From positions 1 through 27,956 of the IMG/VR virus record IMGVR_UViG_3300030329_003190: 27,956 bases of DNA; one strand, written 5' to 3'. Source of the DNA: a virus. Position numbers and translations under genes: made by a program. Below the pieces are notes generated by a model, which had not been told where the DNA came from, made no database searches, and worked only from the letters and a program-made list of their open reading frames with translations. Below are positions 3,154-27,956 of the stretch, piece after piece (positions within the stretch are counted from its first letter, which is position 1; each line of letters opens with the position of its first letter).

Positions 3154-3915
3154 ATGAAGCGAGCAATAGTTTGCGGGGACACACACTTTCCGCTACACGA
3201 CCAAGCCGCAGTCAACTGCGTGCTTCAGGCGATCAAACTCGTCAAGCCCAATATATTCATCCATCTGGGAGATGTTATTGAAGGTGAATCTGTTTCGCAT
3301 TGGAAATATAAAAGAAGAAAGCGACCCCCTATTGAATACATACTTCCAGAAATTGAAAAAGAAATTGAAGAAGCCAACAAAGGGATGGATCAGTTTGACA
3401 AGGTATTGGATTCAGTTAAGTGCAAAGAGCGGTATTTACTTGAGGGGAATCATGATGATTGGTGCAATCAATTTGTGGAGGAACATCCTTACCTCAAGCA
3501 ATACAAGTTTGCCAATGCGTTACGCCTGAAGGACAGAGGATATGTTTACAAACCTTATGGGAAGTATCTCAGGATCGGAAAGCTTTACTTTTATCATGGC
3601 GGCCATTACTCAACGACTTACCACACTAAACAGCACGCTTTACATTTGGGCAAGTCGGTGGTGTATGGACATATCCATGATGTTCAGAGGCATTCCGTTA
3701 CCCATTTGGACGGGACTCATGCAGGGTTTTCTTTGGGATGTTTGAAGGACATGAGCGATGAAGCAAATACTTGGTTACGCAATCGCAAAACGTCGTGGAG
3801 TCACGCTTTCGGAGTTGTGGATTGGTTTTCTAATAATGATTTTAGACTTGATGTTGTGGATATTACAAAAGGTAAAACATTTCTTTGGGGAGAAGAGCTA
3901 AATGGAAACACTTAA
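3154..3915 (+). CDS. Calcineurin-like metallophosphoesterase
   Basis: 253 aa, starting directly after the endolysin stop. All family motifs are present and in order: GDTH (Asp9, His11), GDVIE (Asp40), GNHDD (Asn99, His100), HGGHYS (His148/His151) and GHIHD (His173, His175). These residues bind two metal ions and hydrolyse a phosphomonoester or phosphodiester bond. The physiological substrate of phage copies is unknown; nucleic acid 3' ends, cyclic nucleotides and modified nucleotides are all possible. Its position between lysis and neck genes is typical for a moron-like or accessory gene. No signal peptide is seen, so it should be cytoplasmic. Confidence 0.92.
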   Translation: MKRAIVCGDTHFPLHDQAAVNCVLQAIKLVKPNIFIHLGDVIEGESVSHWKYKRRKRPPIEYILPEIEKEIEEANKGMDQFDKVLDSVKCKERYLLEGNHDDWCNQFVEEHPYLKQYKFANALRLKDRGYVYKPYGKYLRIGKLYFYHGGHYSTTYHTKQHALHLGKSVVYGHIHDVQRHSVTHLDGTHAGFSLGCLKDMSDEANTWLRNRKTSWSHAFGVVDWFSNNDFRLDVVDITKGKTFLWGEELNGNT

Positions 3916-5751: not shown

Positions 5752-6758
5752 TGGCACTCGATGGAGCGGGTTATGCCCCAAGCGAATTCAAACTCGCATT
5801 AAAGGCCGAAAGTACAATCGGCACAGCCAATGTCTCTTCGATGAACCTTATCAATGTTGATTCTGTTTCACTCCCTGCACTTAATCCAACTCAAGTTTTG
5901 GATGTGAGAAGCGGGGACGGACGGACAGCGAAAGCGGAAGATGCTTTTGTTACAGAGAAAGGGACGACGAAAGAGATTGCATTCTCAGGAACGGCAGACA
6001 GTACGGTTTTGCCACTTTTACTTCAGAATATCACAACGACTGCTGTGGGTTCAAGTCCTGCCAGTTATGATGTTGCTTACAACTACTCACCACCCGAATT
6101 GGAGACTGGGGACAACAGTTCAATTACGATACGGGACACGGTCACGGTTGCTGTCGTCAGCCCCGAAGCAGGCAACGATCAATCAATAGTATTCCCCGGT
6201 TGTTGTTTAACATCTCTCAGTTTGACGGGAGACATGGGAACTGAGTCTGGGCGTATCAAAATTAGTGGGACGTTCAAAACGGGCTTCCCTCCGTCATACG
6301 CTCAGAACAAACCAACATCAATGACGGCTCACGGGTCAACTTATTATTCTCTAACTGATTTCCATACGACGAGGACTGTTGCGGGAATCTCTAATTGCGT
6401 GATAGCATCTTGGACATTAAATCTTGAGAATGATGCGGTTTATTTGGGATATGATGGAGCGACTGCTATCCCTCAATCAATCGTCAGAGCAATTCCTGAG
6501 TTGGCTGTTTCGCAGGACTTTTCATTGAAATACGACGACAATACAGCGGGGATGCACGTTTTGTATAAAAACGGATCGAACGCCGCTATTGAATTGTCAA
6601 ATCACGGAACTTGGTCATCAGCTTCGACATTTGGAGTCAAAGCCGCCAATGGAAGGATTACAAGTGTTGAGTGGTCGGACGCGGCGGCTATGTTTGTAGA
6701 TATGTCAATCAAAAATATGGCGACCACAAGCGGACACGTTATTCAAATAATCGCTTGA
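5751..6758 (+). CDS. Major tail protein (tail tube)
   Basis: 335 aa; an AAGGAG lies about 8 nt before the ATG. The protein is rich in Ser, Thr, Ala and Gly and in predicted beta strands, with the opening pattern of tube proteins (EFKLALKAESTIGTANVSSMNLINVDSVSLPAL). A later repeat of the same style (TASMTLNLENDAVY-type strands, AFSGTADSTVLPLLLQN) fits the beta-sandwich fold that stacks as hexamer rings. It is followed at once by a good intrinsic terminator, as expected for a highly expressed structural gene. The chaperone and tape-measure genes come next, which fixes its identity by order. Confidence 0.85.
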   Translation: MALDGAGYAPSEFKLALKAESTIGTANVSSMNLINVDSVSLPALNPTQVLDVRSGDGRTAKAEDAFVTEKGTTKEIAFSGTADSTVLPLLLQNITTTAVGSSPASYDVAYNYSPPELETGDNSSITIRDTVTVAVVSPEAGNDQSIVFPGCCLTSLSLTGDMGTESGRIKISGTFKTGFPPSYAQNKPTSMTAHGSTYYSLTDFHTTRTVAGISNCVIASWTLNLENDAVYLGYDGATAIPQSIVRAIPELAVSQDFSLKYDDNTAGMHVLYKNGSNAAIELSNHGTWSSASTFGVKAANGRITSVEWSDAAAMFVDMSIKNMATTSGHVIQIIA

Positions 6759-8867: not shown

Positions 8868-11089
8868 TGCTTAGTTTCAATTCCACTCTCACCAATAAAC
8901 TCAAGCTGAGAAATGCTCAGACTTTCTGGTGTTTGAAATTGTATTACAATGATGAGTCCGCTTTTGTGGGAATGAGTGATACGCACAGAGTTGATGGGTC
9001 TGATATTTATTATGGGTTAATTACAGATTGGGGAAATATCTCACAAAGCATTGAGTATTTTGATTTCAGTTCTTCTATTGCGAATATGACTGTTAAAGTA
9101 GTTAATTCTCAAAAATCATTTCAGGATGGAAGGTTCTCAGATCAATTAGCCACAAAGAATTTCGCCAACAGGAAATGGGAATTGTTCCAGTGTGTTCATG
9201 GCTTAACATTTGACACTGCTGCTAATATGATCGGCTCTGGAGTTATAGCAGGGCAGACTGAATATAATAGAAATGAATTATCGTTTATTCTTATGGATTA
9301 TAGCCCGAGGTATCACAAAGAATTACCCACAGATGTTGTTGACCTTTCTACTTATGCAAATGCTCCAGAGAAAAATCTTAACAAACCAATCCCTATGACT
9401 TACGGCTATTTCCATGATATAACTGATTCTGGTACTATTGACTCACTTATGACAAGTGTTTACACTGAAGCAAAATTTCCCGCAATCATAACAAATACAT
9501 GGGACGACTCAACTAATTATATGGTGTCGAAACCTGACACCGAAGATATGCACACGCTTGACACGGGAAATGTTTATTATCATGGTGGTGGTGGTGAATT
9601 TGGTGCTTTCTATGCAAGTAATGCCGCAGTCAGTACTTCTGATCCATCTCTTTCTACAAAGGGGGCAATCTTTTATCACTATCCCATATTGAGGAATGGT
9701 GGGAATATAACGGACAAAAGTTTTAGCACGTCTACTACACTTACAGCCAACAATTCAAGTGGCACTGTCTCTTTTGATATTCCCAAGATTCCAAATCTGG
9801 GTGAGATTACTTATATCCGTGCCATTATTTCTTATGCTTCTTTTAGTGATGCTTCTATTGACGGGTCTGATGTTTTCCGAGTACAAAACGCATCTGCTAC
9901 TTCTACCAATGCCGCCTTAGAATGGAATCCTGATGACGCACATGAAAGAGTAGATGTAAGTGCTATGTTTACCACAGCACAAAAAGATTCTTGGGACTTG
10001 GAAGGAACATATCAGTTCTATTTATTGACATCCATTTCTGGAAATAATCGCAACTGTGCCATTAAGCAGATTGAGGTGGAAATTCAATTCAATGCGAATC
10101 AAACATATCTCCAAGAGTTTGATGACATGAGATATTCCGCTGTCCCCAAAATTGTTTTTGAAAAGGGAAATGCTAAATCTGTAAAAGTAATGAAGAAGGT
10201 TCGGGTAACGGGACAGCAATTACAACCTGCAAATATAGATTATGTTTATTTTTCTGGAATAGGTAGAAAATTTCCATCAGGCATTACAAGCGGCAGATCA
10301 ACTGGCTATGCGACTTCCGATTATATCACAAATCCCATCTATATTATTGAGGACATAATTAGAACAGGACTTGGGCTTACCACTGTTGATGCAACTACTT
10401 TTGATGCTTCTGGGAATACTACAGACGGATTAATTACCCATGTTTTTGATGATGCAGTTGGGGATGTAAAATTTGCCTTTAGTCAAAATAAATTTATTGA
10501 TTCCAAAGAATTTATAGAAAAGATTGGTGGGCTATGCGGCACTTATGTCTTTCTGTCTGGTGATGGAAATTTCAAAACAAAGACTCTAAAAAAACCCGCT
10601 GACTATTCCGCAGAGGATCAGTCTATTGATTACAACGACATTACTTTAGATGTTATTAGTTTGACTCCTGCCAACGCTGTTCGGAATAATATTACAGTGC
10701 AATATCAATTTAATTATGGAATGAATCAAACTTCTGGCACAAAAACTGCATCAGATTCTACCTCTCAGGGAACTACGGTGAATGGGATAAAACAAACCTT
10801 AGAATACGAACATGATGCAGGGATGATTCAAGATGGCACTACGGCTCAGAATCTTGCAACCTATTACAAAGACATTATGAAGGACAGGAAAACAACAATT
10901 ATGTTTGATGTGCCTTCGGCAAAATATAATCACCTTGAGATCGGCGACATCATCAACTTTGATAATTGGGATGCAAATATCAAATTGTATGGAGCAAGTA
11001 TGGATTCATCCAATAATTTTTTTATGATAACACAAACGAACAAACGACCAAACGGATGTGAGTTCTTTTGCATAGAGGTTTCAGATTAA
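8867..11089 (+). CDS. Large tail-tip / hub-like protein
   Basis: 740 aa, the largest tail protein apart from the fibre. The N-terminal 180 residues are strand-rich with the pattern FWCLKLYYNDESAFVGMSDTHRVDGSDIYYGLITDWGNISQSIEYFDFSSSIANMTVKVVN, in the style of distal tail or hub beta domains. The middle holds a Gly-rich loop (HGGGGEFGAF). The C-terminal third (about 490-740) has ITNPIYIIEDIIRTGLGLTTVDATTFD...FKTKTLKKPADYSAEDQSIDYNDITLDVISLTPA, resembling baseplate-hub repeats. Being directly after the tape measure supports a tail-tip function that closes the tube and anchors receptor-binding parts. No peptidoglycan hydrolase motif is visible. Confidence 0.75.
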   Translation: MLSFNSTLTNKLKLRNAQTFWCLKLYYNDESAFVGMSDTHRVDGSDIYYGLITDWGNISQSIEYFDFSSSIANMTVKVVNSQKSFQDGRFSDQLATKNFANRKWELFQCVHGLTFDTAANMIGSGVIAGQTEYNRNELSFILMDYSPRYHKELPTDVVDLSTYANAPEKNLNKPIPMTYGYFHDITDSGTIDSLMTSVYTEAKFPAIITNTWDDSTNYMVSKPDTEDMHTLDTGNVYYHGGGGEFGAFYASNAAVSTSDPSLSTKGAIFYHYPILRNGGNITDKSFSTSTTLTANNSSGTVSFDIPKIPNLGEITYIRAIISYASFSDASIDGSDVFRVQNASATSTNAALEWNPDDAHERVDVSAMFTTAQKDSWDLEGTYQFYLLTSISGNNRNCAIKQIEVEIQFNANQTYLQEFDDMRYSAVPKIVFEKGNAKSVKVMKKVRVTGQQLQPANIDYVYFSGIGRKFPSGITSGRSTGYATSDYITNPIYIIEDIIRTGLGLTTVDATTFDASGNTTDGLITHVFDDAVGDVKFAFSQNKFIDSKEFIEKIGGLCGTYVFLSGDGNFKTKTLKKPADYSAEDQSIDYNDITLDVISLTPANAVRNNITVQYQFNYGMNQTSGTKTASDSTSQGTTVNGIKQTLEYEHDAGMIQDGTTAQNLATYYKDIMKDRKTTIMFDVPSAKYNHLEIGDIINFDNWDANIKLYGASMDSSNNFFMITQTNKRPNGCEFFCIEVSD

Positions 11090-12097
11090 ATGACATATCA
11101 ACGAATTCAAACACCAAGATTTTATGTAGACACGATCAATTGGCTCGTATCAAGAGGGATTGCCTCCACCGAGTTTGATGTGCCCTCAGCGGGAGCCAAT
11201 TTAATTGACCACGATGCCACCCATGTTGACGAAGAACTTTTCGATATGAACCCTGCTAATCAAGTTATTTTTTCAACAAGTGATTCTTCAGCAACAAGAG
11301 CCGATCATGTTATGTTCGTTATTGATAAGCAGGTGACAGACATTCCGACAAATTTTGTGGCAGTGCTTAACCACAACATGGATTCAGCTTCTGGTAAATT
11401 TCGCATCGCTACGAGCACAAATAACATTACCGCCGCCGATCCCTCTGCTGTTGCCTGCACTTCAGTCTTGAATGCGGCTGATTCATCTGATATATTTACA
11501 CCCGCAACCGATGGCGATTCCATTGTTACATTGGATTCGGCTTCGAGTAGTCGATATATCGGCATTCAATTTGAGGGCGATTCTGACTTTAGCTCTTCCA
11601 ATGATTTGAAAATTGGCTGTATTCTCATTGGTGAGTATTTTGACATGCCTCTCGCTCCCGATCTTCAGGTCACAAGATCAGTGGCTTTCGGAAATGATAT
11701 TATGGAAACACCGGCAGGGAGAAGGTTTAGCCAAGCGAGATGGTTGGAGGGCAATCAATCTTCAACGACTCAATCAGGGCAACCGTTTAGAAATGCAACA
11801 ACACCCACAGCCCAAAGGTTCGGTGGCAGGATGAGTTATTCTATGAATTTCAGTTTTCTGAATGATGACGATTTAACAACGAGCAACATTGCAACGGACT
11901 CAAGTACAGATTCATTCTACAATATGGTTTGGAATCGGACAGGTGGCAGTCATCTTCCATTTGTGTTCACCCCAGATAAAAGTTCAACGACAGCGGGAGA
12001 TTATATTTTCGCTCGGTTCGGACAAGATGAATGGGCATCGCAACAAGTAGCGAGCAATGTTTTTTCCACATCGTTGTCGGTTATTGAGGAATTTTAG
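11090..12097 (+). CDS. Distal tail structural protein
   Basis: 335 aa, beginning immediately after the hub-like gene. It is beta-rich with several Ser/Thr/Asp runs (TDIPTNFVAVLNHNMDSASGKFRIATSTNN; LTTSNIATDSSTDSFYNMVWNRTGG). It has the 'VAVLNHN' and 'RYIGIQF' style strands found in minor tail proteins of marine siphoviruses. Residues 139-148 (ATDGDSIVTL) are encoded by a 32-bp stretch that is repeated exactly in an early gene at 17715. This is the last structural gene before a strong terminator at 12132. A receptor-facing or tail-tip role is likely but not demonstrated by any motif. Confidence 0.7.
   Translation: MTYQRIQTPRFYVDTINWLVSRGIASTEFDVPSAGANLIDHDATHVDEELFDMNPANQVIFSTSDSSATRADHVMFVIDKQVTDIPTNFVAVLNHNMDSASGKFRIATSTNNITAADPSAVACTSVLNAADSSDIFTPATDGDSIVTLDSASSSRYIGIQFEGDSDFSSSNDLKIGCILIGEYFDMPLAPDLQVTRSVAFGNDIMETPAGRRFSQARWLEGNQSSTTQSGQPFRNATTPTAQRFGGRMSYSMNFSFLNDDDLTTSNIATDSSTDSFYNMVWNRTGGSHLPFVFTPDKSSTTAGDYIFARFGQDEWASQQVASNVFSTSLSVIEEF
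11503..11534 (+). repeat. 32-bp exact repeat shared with the early gene at 17715
   Basis: All 32 bases (from CGCAACCGATGG to TTACATTGG) recur at 17715-17746. The flanks do not match on either side. Both copies are read in the same phase and give A-T-D-G-D-S-I-V-T-L. A match this long is not expected by chance in a genome this small. Confidence 0.9.
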
Positions 12098-13285: not shown

Positions 13286-13987
13286 ATGAGTGATTTGCAA
13301 ACGGTTAAGATAAATGGCAAGGACTATGTAATAAAAACGGTTAAGATAGGTGGCAAGGACTATGTAATGGTCGACGAGAGGCTTCGCATATTTCACGAAA
13401 TCTATCCAAACGGGTCGATCGAGACCACGGTAAACATAGAAACCGAGTTTCTCACCTACCTTGCAACAAAGTCTCAAGCTCCTGTTCTTGCAGTCAGGGC
13501 GGTGGTAACCCCAGACGTGAGTGTGCCTGAGAGGTTTTTCACGGGACACGCCTACGAAGTAGAGGGGTCGACTTTTATCAATGATGGGTCGGCTCTCGAA
13601 AACTGTGAAACGTCAGCGGTCGGAAGGGCGTTGGCAATGCTTAATATCGGACTGATCGGTGACGTTGCGTCGTTTGATGAGGTGGCTAACGCACAAGCCA
13701 ATAAAGCAAAACCAATACACCATGAGCATCCAAACGGTGCGGCCCTTACTGATGAAGAATGGAAATCACAGCGAAACAATGTGGCGTTTACGGGTGGTAA
13801 GAACGCAGGCCTTGCTTGGTGCGATCTTAGCAATGATGTGGTTAAGTGGGCTTCTGAACAACATAAATCAGAAGAGAAGAAAATGATGGCACGAATGGAA
13901 ATGGACTACCGTGCTTTCACCAATTCGTCTGAGGGGGAATCAAACCCTCTGTCGGAAAGCCCGGTCGATAATGAGTTGCCATTTTAG
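13286..13987 (+). CDS. Single-strand annealing-type recombination protein with SSB-like tail
   Basis: 233 aa with GGGGGA before the ATG. The core (about 26-125) carries the pattern YVMVDERLRIFHEIYPNGSIET...FFTGHAYEVEGSTFINDGSALENCETSAVGRALAMLNIG. This is common to phage proteins annotated as Rad52/Sak-like annealing proteins or ssDNA-binding proteins. A following region (AFTGGKNAGLAWCDLSNDVVKWASEQ) resembles the small DUF3820-type motif. The protein ends D-N-E-L-P-F, like the acidic C-terminal tip of SSB that recruits replication partners. The N-terminus has a tandem duplication (TVKINGKDYVIK then TVKIGGKDYVMV). It probably promotes strand annealing in phage replication or recombination. Confidence 0.75.
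   Translation: MSDLQTVKINGKDYVIKTVKIGGKDYVMVDERLRIFHEIYPNGSIETTVNIETEFLTYLATKSQAPVLAVRAVVTPDVSVPERFFTGHAYEVEGSTFINDGSALENCETSAVGRALAMLNIGLIGDVASFDEVANAQANKAKPIHHEHPNGAALTDEEWKSQRNNVAFTGGKNAGLAWCDLSNDVVKWASEQHKSEEKKMMARMEMDYRAFTNSSEGESNPLSESPVDNELPF
13301..13372 (+). repeat. 36-bp tandem duplication in the annealing-protein gene
   Basis: Two copies start at 13301 and 13337. The first 33 bases match at 31 positions. The length is a multiple of three, so the frame is kept and residues 6-17 and 18-29 are near copies. The second copy joins smoothly to the conserved core, so the first is probably the added one. Confidence 0.9.
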
Positions 13988-14257: not shown

Positions 14258-15130
14258 ATGGATAGAGGTTGGATAAGCCTTCACCGAAAGTTGAAAGAAC
14301 ATTGGATTTGGGAGAAGCCTGAATATGTCCGAGCGTGGATTGACCTTCTTTTTAGGGCAAGTCATAAAGACACAAAAATGCTTTTTGATGGCAAATTTAT
14401 CCTTGTTGGCAGGGGTGAATTTATTACATCACAAGAGGGTCTTGCGTTGGAATGGGGGTGGTCAAGAGGAAAGGTAAATCGGTTTCTCCATTTGTTAGAA
14501 AAAGATTCAATGATCGTTCTAAAAACGGGACACAAGGCGACACACGTAACTATCTGTAATTACAGCACTTATCAGAATATGCGGACATCAAACGAACATC
14601 AAACGGACATCAAACGAACATCAAACGAACATCAAACGGACACAATCAATAATGGGAATAAGGGAAATAATGGGAATAAGGGGGGAGAGCCACCCCTTCA
14701 GTACCCTGTACTAAAATTCTGGAAAATGTTTAACAACTGGGAAGAGAAGAGAAATCTATTACCACAGGAAACGCCGAACAGGGTAGAGCGTCAGTTGATG
14801 GTTCGAGCGTTGGAGCAGTTCCCTTTGGAGGTCTGGAAGCCTTTCATTGATGAGATGCACAGGCGAGGCGACCAAAAACAGCTCAAATGGTTTGTTGACG
14901 GAGACTTCAGGCGATATGACCCAAAAAGGCCCATGAGGAACGGTAAGCAGGGCGAGTCTTTGGAACTAACTTACACATTTCGATGCTTGAATCACCCCGA
15001 GAGGAAAACTAAGAATGAAAGCAGAGCTTTCTATAAACTTTGCCCAGACTGCAACGAGCGATTGGTGCAAGTTGATTCACGGGTAAAGAGGCCCAAAACC
15101 TTGCTTTCACCAATTCGTCAAGGCCCATGA
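14258..15130 (+). CDS. Replication initiator (winged-helix, DnaD/lambda O-like) containing the origin
   Basis: 290 aa with GAGGGGGG before the ATG. Residues 1-105 match the phage replisome-organiser type of winged helix: GWISLHRKLKEHWIWEKPEYVRAWIDLLFRASH, then GEFITSQEGLALEWGWSRGKVNRFLHLLEKDSMI. A low-complexity linker (110-143: RTSNEHQTD repeats and NNGNKG repeats) is the coding image of DNA iterons. The C-terminal part is helical (FWKMFNNWEEKR...ALEQFPLEVWKPFIDEMHRR) and ends with a zinc-ribbon-like C-x3-H...C-x2-C (FRCLNHPERK...YKLCPDCNERL). As with lambda O, the protein would bind repeats inside its own gene and recruit the host helicase. The last 12 codons are built from short repeated segments. 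Confidence 0.82.
   Translation: MDRGWISLHRKLKEHWIWEKPEYVRAWIDLLFRASHKDTKMLFDGKFILVGRGEFITSQEGLALEWGWSRGKVNRFLHLLEKDSMIVLKTGHKATHVTICNYSTYQNMRTSNEHQTDIKRTSNEHQTDTINNGNKGNNGNKGGEPPLQYPVLKFWKMFNNWEEKRNLLPQETPNRVERQLMVRALEQFPLEVWKPFIDEMHRRGDQKQLKWFVDGDFRRYDPKRPMRNGKQGESLELTYTFRCLNHPERKTKNESRAFYKLCPDCNERLVQVDSRVKRPKTLLSPIRQGP
14585..14682 (+). repeat. Iterons and AT-rich repeat: putative replication origin
   Basis: Five tandem 11-bp units, ACATCAAACG followed by A or G, run from 14585 to 14639, one helical turn apart. Two copies of AATAATGGGAATAAGGG follow (14648-14664 and 14666-14682, period 18), a likely unwinding region. Initiator-binding repeats next to AT-rich repeats inside the initiator gene are the hallmark of the lambda-type origin. 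The 11-bp period shifts the reading frame, so the protein repeat appears every 33 bp. This argues that the DNA sequence, not the peptide, is under selection. Confidence 0.82.
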
Positions 15131-15138
15131 GGAACGGT
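15102..15138 (+). repeat. Two abutting copied segments at the end of the initiator gene
   Basis: Bases 15102-15119 are identical to 13912-13929 in the annealing-protein gene (18 bp). The directly adjoining bases 15120-15138 are identical to 14926-14944 earlier in the same initiator gene (19 bp). The two copies touch without a gap. They are read in different frames from their sources and supply the stop codon of the initiator. Confidence 0.85.
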
Positions 15139-15156: not shown

Positions 15157-15384
15157 ATGATTCGGCGTTGCCCGACCCACAACGATCAAAGAACTGACTG
15201 TGGGGTTTGTTATCCCCCGGTCAATGAGTACGACTGGACCACAGGGAGCAGAGACAGATACAGGTTTCACTTACAATCCTTCAAGGATCCCACAGAAGAG
15301 AAAGAAGAAGAATCTGACCACCGTGACAGTTATGACAGCGACACATCCAAGCTTCAAATAGGAGAGGTTTGCGGACTTGAGTGA
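15157..15384 (+). CDS. Small zinc-finger-like early protein carrying a tail-fibre fragment
   Basis: 75 aa with TTGGAGG before the ATG. The N-terminus has C5-x2-H8-x6-C15-x2-C18 (CPTH...CGVC), a likely zinc site. Residues 26-43 are encoded by a 53-bp stretch that matches the tail-fibre gene at 26632-26684 at 50 of 53 positions, but in another frame. The remainder is very acidic and Ser-rich (EEKEEESDHRDSYDSD). The mix of a zinc site, a borrowed segment and a low-complexity tail suggests a recently rebuilt gene. It overlaps the DUF3310 gene by 8 nt. Confidence 0.6.
   Translation: MIRRCPTHNDQRTDCGVCYPPVNEYDWTTGSRDRYRFHLQSFKDPTEEKEEESDHRDSYDSDTSKLQIGEVCGLE
15233..15285 (+). repeat. 53-bp segment copied from the tail-fibre gene
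   Basis: This stretch aligns without gaps to 26632-26684 with three differences (at 15239, 15250 and 15265). The fibre copy encodes a motif typical of such fibres (TGSQGAETDTGFTYNPSS). Here it is read in another frame, so the fibre is the likely source. Confidence 0.92.
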
Positions 15385-15599: not shown

Positions 15600-15791
15600 G
15601 TGACGAAAATCAACACCTATGTGGACTCAAACAACGAGATGGGTTTGCGGCTTATGCTTAGTCTTGGGCTGAAAGAGCTTAAAGACAAGCAGTTTAATTA
15701 TGATTTAATCAAGCAAGCAGAAGAAGAGCATGACAGGCTTCACAATGTTTGCAACGCGAAGAACAAGAATGAAGAAAGCTGTAGCGTATAA
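15600..15791 (+). CDS. Small helical early protein, unknown
   Basis: 63 aa from a GTG start with CGGGAG (15587-15592). It is almost wholly helical and charged (NEMGLRLMLSLGLKELKDKQFNYDLIKQAEEEHDRLHNVC). Two Cys near the end are not arranged as a metal site. The gene overlaps the start of the next one. No family is recognised. Confidence 0.65.
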   Translation: MTKINTYVDSNNEMGLRLMLSLGLKELKDKQFNYDLIKQAEEEHDRLHNVCNAKNKNEESCSV

Positions 15792-17604: not shown

Positions 17605-17886
17605 ATGCCTAAACCTATTGAAGATATGAGCATTGAAGAACTCCAGATCACCTATGGAGTTTCTCGTCCCAAAGCCAAACAGATTCACAAAGTCTACTGT
17701 AAATATCCAACGGACGCAACCGATGGCGATTCCATTGTTACATTGGCTATGGTATCGGCTGGGTCGGATTATCAGAGTGAACATGGTGAAGATTTTTTCG
17801 AGATGGGGGATAGAATTGATCTTCCTGATGGATGCCTTGAGAATTTACCAGACGAAGCCGAAGAAGAATGGTGGATGGTAATATAG
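17605..17886 (+). CDS. Early protein sharing a 32-bp segment with a tail gene
   Basis: 93 aa. The N-terminal 35 residues are helical (PIEDMSIEELQITYGVSRPKAKQIHKVY). Residues 38-47 (ATDGDSIVTL) are encoded by the exact 32-bp repeat found in the tail gene at 11503, in the same phase. The C-terminus is very acidic (DLPDGCLENLPDEAEEEWW). The 100 nt before it (17506-17604) hold two copies of AACTACATCA and a small TCTCT/AGAGA hairpin, with GAGAGAAG at the ribosome site. I cannot assign a function. Confidence 0.65.
   Translation: MPKPIEDMSIEELQITYGVSRPKAKQIHKVYCKYPTDATDGDSIVTLAMVSAGSDYQSEHGEDFFEMGDRIDLPDGCLENLPDEAEEEWWMVI
17715..17746 (+). repeat. 32-bp exact repeat, early-gene copy
   Basis: Identical to 11503-11534 in the tail gene, in the same reading phase. 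The flanking bases differ on both sides. It lies 6.2 kb from the other copy. Confidence 0.9.
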
Positions 17887-22821: not shown

Positions 22822-24166
22822 ATGGCAGAAGTAACATTAACGACTGCGGCCAACTTTAAATAATTGGAGTTGTAAAACCTTGCTATATGCTGGAAACCCC
22901 TTAGAGCCAAACATACCGACTACCAAGTTATCAGGTGAAAATTGTTTGGATTGGGCAATCAGCAGGGAAGTGGTGGTTCACCCCTCAACGACTACACGCA
23001 GGGCGTTCATTGAACGAAGATATAGTCTGTTCTTATGTGAGAGCATAAGAAGTAATTAGAAATAATTACTCGCCTTAAAGTTTAAGGTCACAAAAGTAAC
23101 AGAAAGATCCCAGAAATGTGGGCCGACGGAATCCTTGATTACGCTGAGAGACAATTTCAGCTCAGGAATCAAGTAACTGACCTGTCAAGCATGGTCTCAG
23201 CAGGTGGCGACACCATCCACGTTCCGAAAGTAACTGAAGAGACTGCGGCTTCTTTAAGCTCTGGCTCGGCTGTCACTTACGGTGCAAATACCGATGGTAA
23301 AGTTGACCTCTCTGTTGACCAACACGCTTACGAAGCAAAACGCATAGGCGATAAACAAGAAAATGTTGCCTCTAAATTTGGCTATATCGGTGGAACTCTA
23401 AGTGCATACGCATAAGACAATACCGAGGAAAGACTGCATGATTGCAGAATCCGTAGAGACTAATACGCCAAACACCCATCGGGTGAAGATAGAGTCCGAA
23501 CTGCATAGAAATATGCAGAGGGGAAGATGTGAACGATTCCCCCGCCTGATTCATCAGGTCATTAACAAAGTAACAGAATTGATCGTAAAGGTTCAGGAAA
23601 ATGCTGACCTCTTCAATATGTATGCCAAGAGCATGGGCTACTCCATAGCCAAGTTCATTGAAAACTACATTGCTGTTTCAGTGCTTCAAGCGGCTACCGG
23701 GAACGACGTAACGCTCAGTGCAGATAACACATTCACAACCGCTCTTCTCAGAAGTGCTTTACAGAAGTTCCTCGATGCGGGACATTCATACACAGATGGA
23801 GATGCTTTCTTGTATTGCTCCCCTGCAAGTTATATGAGTGCCTTGTCTTTGCAGGACTTCTACGATGCTTCCAGAAGAGGCGATGGTGTTGGCCCAGTTG
23901 CAAGCGGTTCTGTTGGAATGGTATATGGTGTTCCAACTTTCGTTAGCACAGACTGGGATGACGATGGCGGTACCGGAGACGAGACGGCCAGTTTATTCAA
24001 ACGAGAAGCGGTTTACTTCGCACAGCAGATCAGCCCAAGAGTGCAGTCAAGTTACGACATAGACTACCTCAGCACTTCAATAGTTGCCGATGTGGTTTTC
24101 GGAGCTTGTCTGAGTCATGGTGCTTCAAGCACATCGTGTGCAGTGGCAAACTTCAACAATCCATAA
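22822..24166 (+). CDS. Major capsid protein, split by two group I introns (join 22822-22857, 23107-23352, 23582-24166)
   Basis: After removal of both introns the frame is 867 nt and encodes 288 aa. Exon 1 (12 codons) is MAEVTLTTAANF; exon 2 (82 codons) starts IPEMWADGILDYAERQF and ends YEAKRIGD; exon 3 (194 codons plus stop) starts IVKVQENADLFNMYAKSMGY. Both joins fall between codons and restore the sequence expected for this type of coat protein (AANFIPEMWAD; KRIGDIVKVQENADLF). Without splicing, translation would stop at TAA 22861 after 13 residues. The gene follows the scaffold and has AGGA before the ATG. Identification as coat protein rests on order and on the sequence style of marine phage capsids. 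Splicing is inferred from sequence, not shown. Confidence 0.88.
22858..23106 (+). ncRNA. Group I intron 1 in the capsid gene (249 nt)
   Basis: The 5' splice site follows a U (TTT at 22855-22857) and the intron ends in G (23106). P1: exon CAACTTT (22851-22857) pairs with the guide GGAGTTG (22866-22872), ending in the required U-G pair. The core has a Q-like CAATCAGCAGG (about 22957), an R-like CTCAACGACTACACG (22984-22998), P8 CGTTC/GAACG (23004-23008/23012-23016), and the S-type AAGATATAGTCT (23017-23028) with GACTA/TAGTC as P7. P9 helices follow: TTCTTATG/CATAAGAA (23030-23037/23044-23051), then AGTAATTA/TAATTACT. There is no homing endonuclease ORF. The length is a multiple of three but contains stops. 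Confidence 0.9.
23353..23581 (+). ncRNA. Group I intron 2 in the capsid gene (229 nt)
   Basis: The 5' splice site follows a U (GAT, 23350-23352) and the intron ends in G (23581). P1: exon AGGCGAT (23346-23352) pairs with the guide GTTGCCT (23365-23371), with a terminal U-G. The core has GTAGAGACTAATACG (R-like, 23453-23467), P8 CACCC/GGGTG (23473-23477/23481-23485), the S-type AAGATAGAGTCC (23486-23497) and a P9 hairpin CTGCAT/ATGCAG (23501-23506/23513-23518). Near the 3' end it shares AGGTCA and AAAGTAACAGAA (23556-23561 and 23567-23578) with intron 1 (23085-23090 and 23093-23104). No endonuclease ORF is present. Confidence 0.9.
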
Positions 24167-24585: not shown

Positions 24586-27500
24586 ATGGCGACGGTAACA
24601 GACCTCACCAACAAACGAATTGCAGACAGCTATGTGCAGTTGCTTCACACTGGGGAAGATGGTGGATTAACCAGTACACCGCTTCAGATATATGATGGCG
24701 ATGGTACGGGTTCAGCATTAAAGCTCGCCACGACATCAATTAACATGGCTGATTCCCATGTGTTGAAATTGGGAACAGGGAATGATTTAACCCTCTATCA
24801 TGACGGATCAAATTCATACATCACCAACGCTGTCGGTGCGTTAAAAATTGCAACAGAAACGTCAGGGATTGCCGTAACGATCGGGCATAGTACAAGCGTG
24901 ACCACAGTCGCTGACGATTTATCTGTAGCGGGAGACCTCGCTGTAGCTGGAACGTCCACTTTTAACGGCGTAATAACACTTGGCGATTCAGTGGCAGATA
25001 CCGTCGCTTTCGGTGGTACCATTACAGGGAATCTTGTCTTTGAAGGCTCAACTTCAGACGCTCACGAATTAACACTTTCTCCCGGCGATCCCTCTGGTGA
25101 TGTAACGGTAACGCTTCCAGTGACAACAGATACATTGGTCGGAAAAGCGACGACGGATACACTGACCAACAAAACATTAAGCGGTGCTGATATAAACACA
25201 GGAACAGTCGATGGGATCACAAGCCTAACCGTAGGGACAGATGGGAGTGGAGCTGATGTTTATTTCTACTCAGCCACGAGTGGCGATCATCTGTTCTGGG
25301 ACTCTTCAGAGGAACTGCTAACCATCACTGGAACAAATGGCCAGACCGCTTTGAACGTAGCTGACGGAAACGTCACAGTCGCCGATACACTAACTGCAAC
25401 CAACATCGGAGCTTTCACCTTATCGGGGAAACTCACTGCGGGAAGCACAGAAATTGAAGGATCGGCTTTTGATATAGATGGTGGAGATATTTCAGCGGCT
25501 ACAATTTCGGGTGGACTTACTTGGAGTGCGGCTCAAGACCTCAATAATCAAAACTTAACAAACGTAGATATTGATTCTGGTGCTATTGATGGAACGACAA
25601 TAGGTGCTTCAAGTGCCGCCGCGGGGACGTTTGCGGCCTTGACGGCGACATCATTTACATTGGGCGGAACAGCCGTCGGCTCAACAGCCGCTGAGTTGAA
25701 CCTCCTTGATGGATCGGCTAAATCAACTTCATCTATTACCATAGCTGATGCGGATGCGTTCATCGTCATTGATGGGACGACTACTAAGCAGATTCCGGCT
25801 TCTGATCTCGAGACTTATATGGAGAGTTCGCTTGACACTCTTTCAAATGTCACAACGGTTGGCACTCTTAATTCGGGGGCTATTTCTTCAGGATTTGGTG
25901 CGATTGACATAGGATCGAGTGCCTTGTCTACCACAGGCTCGGTAACTCTTGGAGCAACGTCGTTCGGAGATAATGCCATTACCAATGTAGCTGACATTGC
26001 CCTTGATTCAATCAGTGCAGACGGAACAGACATCAACATTGCTGTTTCAGACAATTCAGCGACAGCCCTTACAATTAAGCAGGGAAGCGATGCGTATTTA
26101 ATTGTAGATACGGCAAATAGTTCTGAATCAGTTTCAATCGGAACGGGGACTTCTGGCACTCAAATTATTTTGGGGCATTCGACCTCCGAAACCACGATTT
26201 CCGATAACTTATCTGTTACAGGCAACGTAACCATTTCTGGCAGTCTCCAGATTGTTGGAGATTCAAGTGAAATCCAAGCTGATAATCTTGTAGTTGACAA
26301 TCCGACTATTGCAATGGGCTTGACCAATGGTTCAGCCCCTTCATCAGATAGTGGTTTTGATCTTGGATTGAAGCCTCATTGGCACACAGGGTCAGCGGCA
26401 AAGACTGCTTTCTTGGGTGTCGATGTTTCTACTTCTGCTTCAGCACCAAAATTGACCTACATCCCAGATGCTTCTTTCAGTTCTGATGTTGTATCGGGAA
26501 CAGCAGGAACAATCGTTGCCAATCTTGAAGGTGATGTCACGGGTGATTTAACGGGGACAGCCTCTTTATTTACAGCAAGTGCAAATAATAGCACTGACGA
26601 AACAGTTTATCCAGTTTTTGTTGATGGTGCTACTGGATCACAGGGAGCGGAGACAGATACAGGCTTCACTTACAATCCTTCAAGTGGGCTGTTGACTATT
26701 GCAGGAGAACTTGATGCAGGGTCTTTAGACGTATCAGGGGATGCCGATATAGATGGGACTCTGGAAGCCGATGCGTACACGGTTGACGGGACTGCTCTTG
26801 CAACTTATATCAGAGACACCGTTGGAACGAATATGCTGTCAAGCAATACAGAAAGTGGAATCACCGTCACCTATGACACAAGCAACGACAACATTGACTT
26901 TTCTGTGGATGCGGCTCAGACGGGGATCACTTCATTGTTGGCTACTGATATAAAAATCGGTGAAGATGATCAGACCAAGATTGATTTTGAGACTGCTGAT
27001 GAAATCCATTTCTATGCGGCTAATGTGGAGCAGGTATATGTTGCCGATAACATCTTTGGCCCACAATCAGACAGTGATGTTGATTTAGGAGCAACAGGGG
27101 TGAGGTGGAAGGATGCTTTTGTAGACTCCATCACCGTTACGGGTGAAGTTGATGCGGCTTCTCTTGATATATCTGGCAACGCTGACATTGATGGAACTTT
27201 AGAGACAGACAATTTGACAATCGGGGGGTCTCAAGGTAGTGATGGACAGGTCTTAACCTCAACGGGAAGTGGAGTGGCTTGGGAATCATCGTCAGCGGCA
27301 ACCGCTCTTGATGGACTTTCTGATGCTGTTTCTGGCATTTCTAATTTTACCAACTCCCTGATCTTAGGGCATCAGACAACAGGAACATTAAGCAGTGCAG
27401 AGCAAAACACGGCAGTCGGCCATGCGGCTATGGATGCAATCACTCAGGGCGATGACAATTCTATTGTCGGTTACAATGCGGGAGGAGCCATAACGACCGG

Positions 27501-27956
27501 CTCTGGCAACACCTTAGTTGGATCGGCGGCTGGGGCTGATATCGTTGGAGGAAGTAATAATATCGTCATAGGACGAGACGCAGATACGAGTGGTAGTGGT
27601 ACTAATAACGGTATTTGCTTAGGTCATAATATTACCTCTTCAGGGGATGAATTTTGTTTTGGGAAGGCTTCAAATAAGGCCACTTCTACTGGATTTGCAG
27701 GGTCGGGGTCTTGCACATTTTCATACTCTTCCGATGAGAGAAAGAAACGCAATATCCAAGATAATGATTTAGGTCTTGCACTAATTAATAAACTGAAAAC
27801 ACGAACATTTCAGTGGAAACCAGCCGAAGAGCATCCAGAGGCTTGGAAGGCTTGGAGTGATGTAAAAGACGAAGATGGAAATCCAACTGGTGAAAAGGTA
27901 TATCACGATATTGATACTGAAAGAGTTCATTACGGGTTTATCGCACAAGAAGTGAA
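24586..27956 (+). CDS. Tail fibre with YadA-like repeats and S74 chaperone (continues at position 1)
   Basis: Across the circular join the gene encodes 1183 aa and ends at position 251. AGGAG precedes the ATG. The N-terminus (ATVTDLTNKRIADSYVQLLHTGEDGGLTS) is the virion-attachment part. A long beta region of Gly/Thr/Asp-rich segments follows (LYHDGSNSYITN; GTVTNKTL-type turns; TDTGFTYNPSSGLLTIAG). At about 935-1010 there are YadA-head-like repeats (NTAVGHAAMDAITQGDDNSIVGYNAGGAITTGSGNTLVGSAAG). The S74 domain begins at SYSSDERKKRNIQD: Ser1049 is the expected self-cleavage nucleophile and the nearby Lys its partner. It probably binds the host receptor as a trimer. Confidence 0.92.
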   Translation, partial: MATVTDLTNKRIADSYVQLLHTGEDGGLTSTPLQIYDGDGTGSALKLATTSINMADSHVLKLGTGNDLTLYHDGSNSYITNAVGALKIATETSGIAVTIGHSTSVTTVADDLSVAGDLAVAGTSTFNGVITLGDSVADTVAFGGTITGNLVFEGSTSDAHELTLSPGDPSGDVTVTLPVTTDTLVGKATTDTLTNKTLSGADINTGTVDGITSLTVGTDGSGADVYFYSATSGDHLFWDSSEELLTITGTNGQTALNVADGNVTVADTLTATNIGAFTLSGKLTAGSTEIEGSAFDIDGGDISAATISGGLTWSAAQDLNNQNLTNVDIDSGAIDGTTIGASSAAAGTFAALTATSFTLGGTAVGSTAAELNLLDGSAKSTSSITIADADAFIVIDGTTTKQIPASDLETYMESSLDTLSNVTTVGTLNSGAISSGFGAIDIGSSALSTTGSVTLGATSFGDNAITNVADIALDSISADGTDINIAVSDNSATALTIKQGSDAYLIVDTANSSESVSIGTGTSGTQIILGHSTSETTISDNLSVTGNVTISGSLQIVGDSSEIQADNLVVDNPTIAMGLTNGSAPSSDSGFDLGLKPHWHTGSAAKTAFLGVDVSTSASAPKLTYIPDASFSSDVVSGTAGTIVANLEGDVTGDLTGTASLFTASANNSTDETVYPVFVDGATGSQGAETDTGFTYNPSSGLLTIAGELDAGSLDVSGDADIDGTLEADAYTVDGTALATYIRDTVGTNMLSSNTESGITVTYDTSNDNIDFSVDAAQTGITSLLATDIKIGEDDQTKIDFETADEIHFYAANVEQVYVADNIFGPQSDSDVDLGATGVRWKDAFVDSITVTGEVDAASLDISGNADIDGTLETDNLTIGGSQGSDGQVLTSTGSGVAWESSSAATALDGLSDAVSGISNFTNSLILGHQTTGTLSSAEQNTAVGHAAMDAITQGDDNSIVGYNAGGAITTGSGNTLVGSAAGADIVGGSNNIVIGRDADTSGSGTNNGICLGHNITSSGDEFCFGKASNKATSTGFAGSGSCTFSYSSDERKKRNIQDNDLGLALINKLKTRTFQWKPAEEHPEAWKAWSDVKDEDGNPTGEKVYHDIDTERVHYGFIAQEV
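26632..26684 (+). repeat. Tail-fibre source of the segment found at 15233
   Basis: Aligns without gaps to 15233-15285 with three differences. Here it encodes part of TGSQGAETDTGFTYNPSS (fibre residues about 683-700), which has the look of a regular fibre repeat, so this is the likely donor copy. Confidence 0.9.
27887..27956. repeat. Direct terminal repeat, right copy
   Basis: Identical over all 70 bases to positions 1-70. Together with the continuing fibre frame it shows that the contig closes on itself. Confidence 0.95.

Follow-up and report, generated by a model that had tools for sequence, protein, structure and literature searches.

A stretch of tail-fibre DNA within a small early-region phage gene, probably one of several templated insertions

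In 2016, Harms and co-workers reportedly described short-patch double illegitimate recombination (SPDIR) in bacteria (PNAS). Short segments, mostly from the same genome, are said to appear at unrelated loci while the donor remains unchanged, and the replacements reportedly involve single-stranded DNA. Template-switch filler insertions at breaks also consist of short pieces, sometimes taken from successive templates and with little microhomology; they are familiar mainly from eukaryotic end joining. In Rickettsia, palindromic elements of one repeated family form short in-frame insertions in protein genes. The Rad52-like recombinases of phages mediate relaxed homologous exchange; De Paepe et al. 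(2014; PMC3945230) hold that, as phages evolve, illegitimate recombination is probably much rarer than exchange between homologous sequences.

The window analyzed here, the whole 27,956-nucleotide stretch of the IMG/VR virus record IMGVR_UViG_3300030329_003190, and its relatives contain short copied segments that appear to resemble SPDIR of bacteria. The copies measure 53, 32, 22 and 19 bp in the window and 30 bp in the related record G006, the donors are kept, and the events are locus-independent, with four recipient places, five donors and no common sequence. They differ from SPDIR in occurring in a marine phage. Moreover, copy B and the 30-bp case (below), for which relatives supply an empty site, are pure insertions; for copies A and C no clean empty site was found. 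The likeness to template-switch filler DNA is seen in copy C, with its short pieces from two templates. The insertions share with the Rickettsia palindromic elements that they are short and in frame, but instead of one element family a different gene supplied each copy. Rad52-like exchange likewise remodels short intragenic stretches; it is homology-dependent (PMC3945230), whereas donor and recipient in our cases are unrelated. The origin of new phage protein sequence is an open question. With donors and recipients that can be named base by base and with two empty sites in relatives, the idea that phages gain new coding sequence by copying scraps of unrelated genes becomes directly testable. 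The process belongs to a known type, but the open PMC papers searched yielded no phage case in which donors are identified, empty sites are present and a copy is reused in a shifted frame.

Copies A, B and C, as they are called here, and their donors lie on the + strand, as do the tail-fibre gene and the recipient genes of copies A and B. Copy A (15233–15285) is situated in a gene of 75 aa (15157–15384) with an N-terminal CxxH/CxxC motif and putative zinc binding. The gene is presumably early, to judge from its neighbors, a DnaD-like helicase loader and a DUF3310 gene. By self-BLAST, copy A matches 26632–26684 of the tail-fibre gene at 50 of 53 positions on the same strand (E = 1e-16). The two copies are read in different frames, phase 0 in the fibre and phase 1 in the 75-aa gene, and the latter frame is open throughout copy A; the original prediction that fibre DNA is here read as new protein sequence is supported. 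Its further contention that chance cannot explain the match is borne out by repeat counts: in the window, four exact repeats of at least 18 bp have copies separated by 100 bp or more (terminal repeat excluded), whereas 200 order-3 Markov shuffles gave 0.015 on average and never more than 1. The fibre gene, with a start codon assigned from the sequence at 24586, runs to 27956 and continues past the record end to about position 251; its product carries a C-terminal S74 chaperone domain. An exact 70-bp direct terminal repeat (1–70 and 27887–27956) indicates that the contig is probably circular or complete.

It had been proposed that the DNA moved from the fibre gene to the early gene. This direction is supported, since the module encoded by 26632–26684 is widespread in the fibres of marine phages and the relative of the 75-aa gene has no fibre-derived residues. 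The module was found by tblastn in 16 annotated phage records, comprising Synechococcus, Flavobacterium and Pelagibacter phages and a marine virus (11 labelled tail fiber, four hypothetical protein, one unannotated), and an IMG/VR scan with 265 confirmed stretches placed it in at least 80 fetched loci. The fibre copy had also been described as part of a repeat typical of fibres. Although the module does recur among the fibres of many other phages, this fibre does not contain it as a repeated unit, the sole internal similarity being a stretch of 23 aa just downstream (27130–27198, 70% identity).

For the 75-aa gene a single relative was found, in a 42-kb record (G001). Identity is 16/19 at the amino acid level but 37/57 at the nucleotide level, the pattern expected for a real coding sequence. 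The relative shares the CxxH/CxxC motif, followed by other residues, and the fibre-like stretch is absent. Alignment of homologues, suggested as a check on the original prediction, thus yielded a relative lacking the segment, but its tail is unalignable and it provides no clean empty site. Searches of viral_contigs with the protein and with a degenerate DNA pattern, of 35 and of 23 records, of annotated phages and of genome_contigs gave no clean empty site for copy A and returned the G001 relative only. A reading frame in G025 hit by a motif search was set aside, as there are stops in the surrounding frame. We infer the exact extent of the insertion: an ancestor reading GAG TAC GAT CCC would make it 54 bp, or 18 codons.

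The three substitutions between copy A and its donor are C/T, A/G and T/C. Before alleles at these positions were counted, 32 of the 80 loci were dropped for matching the fibre copy at fewer than 38/53 positions, which left 48. The C at 15239 of the early copy is present in none of the 48 listed fibre loci (T in 27, A in 21), which suggests that the early copy itself has changed there. The fibre G at 26649 is present in one (A in 24, T in 21, C in 2), suggesting that here it was the fibre copy that changed. At the third difference (15265 and 26664), the position varies across fibre loci. The donor is the fibre, most simply that of this phage, and both copies have probably been altered since copying.

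Copy B is a 45-bp insertion (17715–17759) in a gene of 93 aa (17605–17886), recognized from the sequence and from comparison with the related locus L025 (record G023). Its first 32 bp (17715–17746) are an exact match, 32/32, to 11503–11534 in gene 11090–12097 of the structural region, and are read in the phase of the donor; no donor was found for the last 13 bp. A fold-back origin for this 13-bp remainder was rejected, single-strand folding being not significant. The small gene is also present in L025, where the flanks are near-identical and precisely the 45 bp are missing. The DGDSI core encoded by the donor is kept in all four other homologues found, and copy B matches the DNA of those other homologues at no more than 27/32 in the set searched; together these establish the direction, from the structural-region gene to 17605–17886. 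L025 has the only relative of the recipient gene within the collection, so that a deletion there is formally possible; it would need removal of exactly the copied stretch. The junctions share no microhomology (0 bases). The predicted structure of the 17605–17886 product (pLDDT 56) was set aside.

An automated comparison of insertions among the relatives revealed a further case, a 30-bp, 10-codon insertion in an HTH-like-looking gene of G006, G007 and G008, which are three separate IMG assemblies. Of 15 records aligned at the site, these three have the insertion and 12 lack it. In inverted orientation it matches 28/30 of 9720–9749 in G006, within a gene labelled by its sequence as a putative DNA methyltransferase; the donor segment is also present in G015 and G016, both of which are without the insertion. 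Junction microhomology amounts to three bases (ATA). The two insertions with empty sites, of 45 and 30 bp, are each a multiple of three in length; they give the clearest evidence of the process and were not part of the original prediction. Sequence identity and donor polarity are shown, along with empty sites for these two.

Copy C (15098–15138) lies at the 3′ end of gene 14258–15130 and consists of two pieces, 22 and 19 bp long. The first matches 13908–13929 in gene 13286–13987 at 21/22, the second is identical (19/19) to 14926–14944 inside gene 14258–15130 itself, and the two adjoin to the base. Abutting pairs of repeats of at least 14 bp arose in 3 of 200 order-3 shuffles. In G015, homology to gene 14258–15130 stops just upstream of copy C (residue 272), and the next gene is a homologue of 15600–15791; the block with the 75-aa and DUF3310 genes is therefore absent there, and the copy C patch may be the edge of a larger rearrangement. 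The donor gene 13286–13987 has a 34-bp stretch near-tandemly duplicated (94%) at 13299–13368, encoding its N-terminus. This gene was considered as an annealing protein and rejected: its matches were to unknown-function or hypothetical proteins, apart from the label 'mgM101-like protein' on a short stretch, and its predicted structure was poor (pLDDT 39).

Such insertions look rare. Among 139 insertion loci in 109 records (1.57 Mb), counted with redundancy across records and including 48 in seven Lactobacillus phages used as a comparison group, two have a clear coding-to-coding self donor, that of the window and that of G006. The remaining self matches, all in Lactobacillus phages, were judged from their sequence alone, without annotation, to be regulatory or paralogous repeats. 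Many records are fragments from which donors may be missing, so that 2/139 is a lower bound. The low count agrees with the rarity of illegitimate recombination stated by De Paepe et al. (PMC3945230). Distant exact repeats of at least 18 bp were also surveyed in 37 records of at least 14 kb, with low-complexity and terminal matches removed before counting; the control phages were hand-picked and non-random (marine, textbook phages and earlier search hits). The window has four, 34 records have 0 to 2, and two exceed the window, T7 with 23, set aside as its promoters, and one Lactobacillus phage with eight. A repeat at 3611/11952 of G025 was dismissed as A/T-rich low complexity, and weak matches with E from 1e-4 to 0.01 were taken as chance or local repeats. 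Additional pairs of 18–22-bp repeats are present in G036, G038 and G048.

Taken with these cases, copy A is probably a templated insertion of the phage's own tail-fibre DNA, of a kind that occurs elsewhere in the same genome and in relatives. It is very unlikely that fibre reads were instead joined into the early gene by the assembler. The window is a single metagenome-type virus record, in which such a chimera could be suspected, but the frame of 15157–15384 remains open, there are several independent copies within this genome, and the 30-bp case recurs in separate assemblies; the three substitutions, with changes apparently in both copies, make a fresh assembly error look unlikely. Acquisition of a short fragment from the fibre of another phage would account for the non-identity of the two 53-bp copies, and SPDIR-type events are reportedly able to use outside DNA. 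Against this unlikely source, the best match of the early copy to any other fibre among the 80 loci listed is 46/53, compared with 50/53 to its own, and copy B is closer to its own gene than to any homologue in the set searched.

That the copies are functional elements, for example a regulatory or decoy RNA site common to early and late transcripts, would fit the three window copies' having the same strand sense as their donors. It is, however, highly improbable: the donors are different genes, no sequence is common to the copies, and the 30-bp case is inverted. Single-strand structure is also unremarkable (z = −1.34 for copy B and 0.54 for copy C), and near copy A there are few promoter- or terminator-like sites, about as many as in shuffles. 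A diversity-generating retroelement, with template and variable repeat, or a mobile element might be thought of, there being two near-identical copies with one in a fibre, but we regard it as extremely improbable. No reverse transcriptase or transposase was detected among 30 proteins scanned, the differences between the 53-bp copies are not restricted to adenines, and neither terminal inverted repeats nor target duplications were seen at the junctions. A transposable element or MITE is likewise contradicted by copies that are all of different sequence and by the two empty-site alignments, in which the three-base ATA is the only candidate target duplication. No dedicated element was found.

Templated insertion of the phage's own DNA would, in the case of copy A, have involved the copying of a short piece of the fibre gene into the small early-region gene with retention of the donor. 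The insertion would have left the recipient frame open, allowing the fibre DNA to be read as new protein in the other frame. We infer the enzymatic route: during replication or break repair, a nascent strand or a short piece of single-stranded phage DNA most likely annealed at a wrong site and was then sealed in by two illegitimate joins; products that kept the frame would have survived selection. Junction microhomology, at 0 bases in copy B and three in the 30-bp case, hardly favors one route over another. No annealing protein was identified among the proteins of this phage that were examined. There was also no sign of a special route from late to early genes, the donors including early-region and methyltransferase genes as well. 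Rather than a special transfer of that sort, copy A is better seen as one among several templated insertions. It is conceivable, though we think it improbable, that the lineage has a recurrent route by which scraps of 20–55 bases of its own coding DNA are pasted into small early-region genes, maybe through a phage annealing protein. If true, such a route would yield new frame-preserving sequence, raw material for fast-evolving host-interaction proteins.

Insertions of another kind are present in the capsid region. The window has two group I introns (Rfam RF00028, 78 and 66 bits) at 22847–23049 and 23319–23518, and the gene interrupted by both looks like the major capsid gene. Relatives have an insertion of 220–243 bp at another position of this region (L025 at about 6218–6460 and G011 at 100–334, 91% identical); that of L025 falls below the Rfam group I cut-off, and the insertion is possibly a divergent intron. 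A part of it, 53–57 bp in length, is also found at 23757–23813 of G006. In G026, which contributes loci L042 and L043, the first and last 583 bp match inexactly, at 94%, perhaps because strains differ where the ends of a circular contig overlap. The first of the window's two introns (22847–23049) is common to the relatives L024 and L025.
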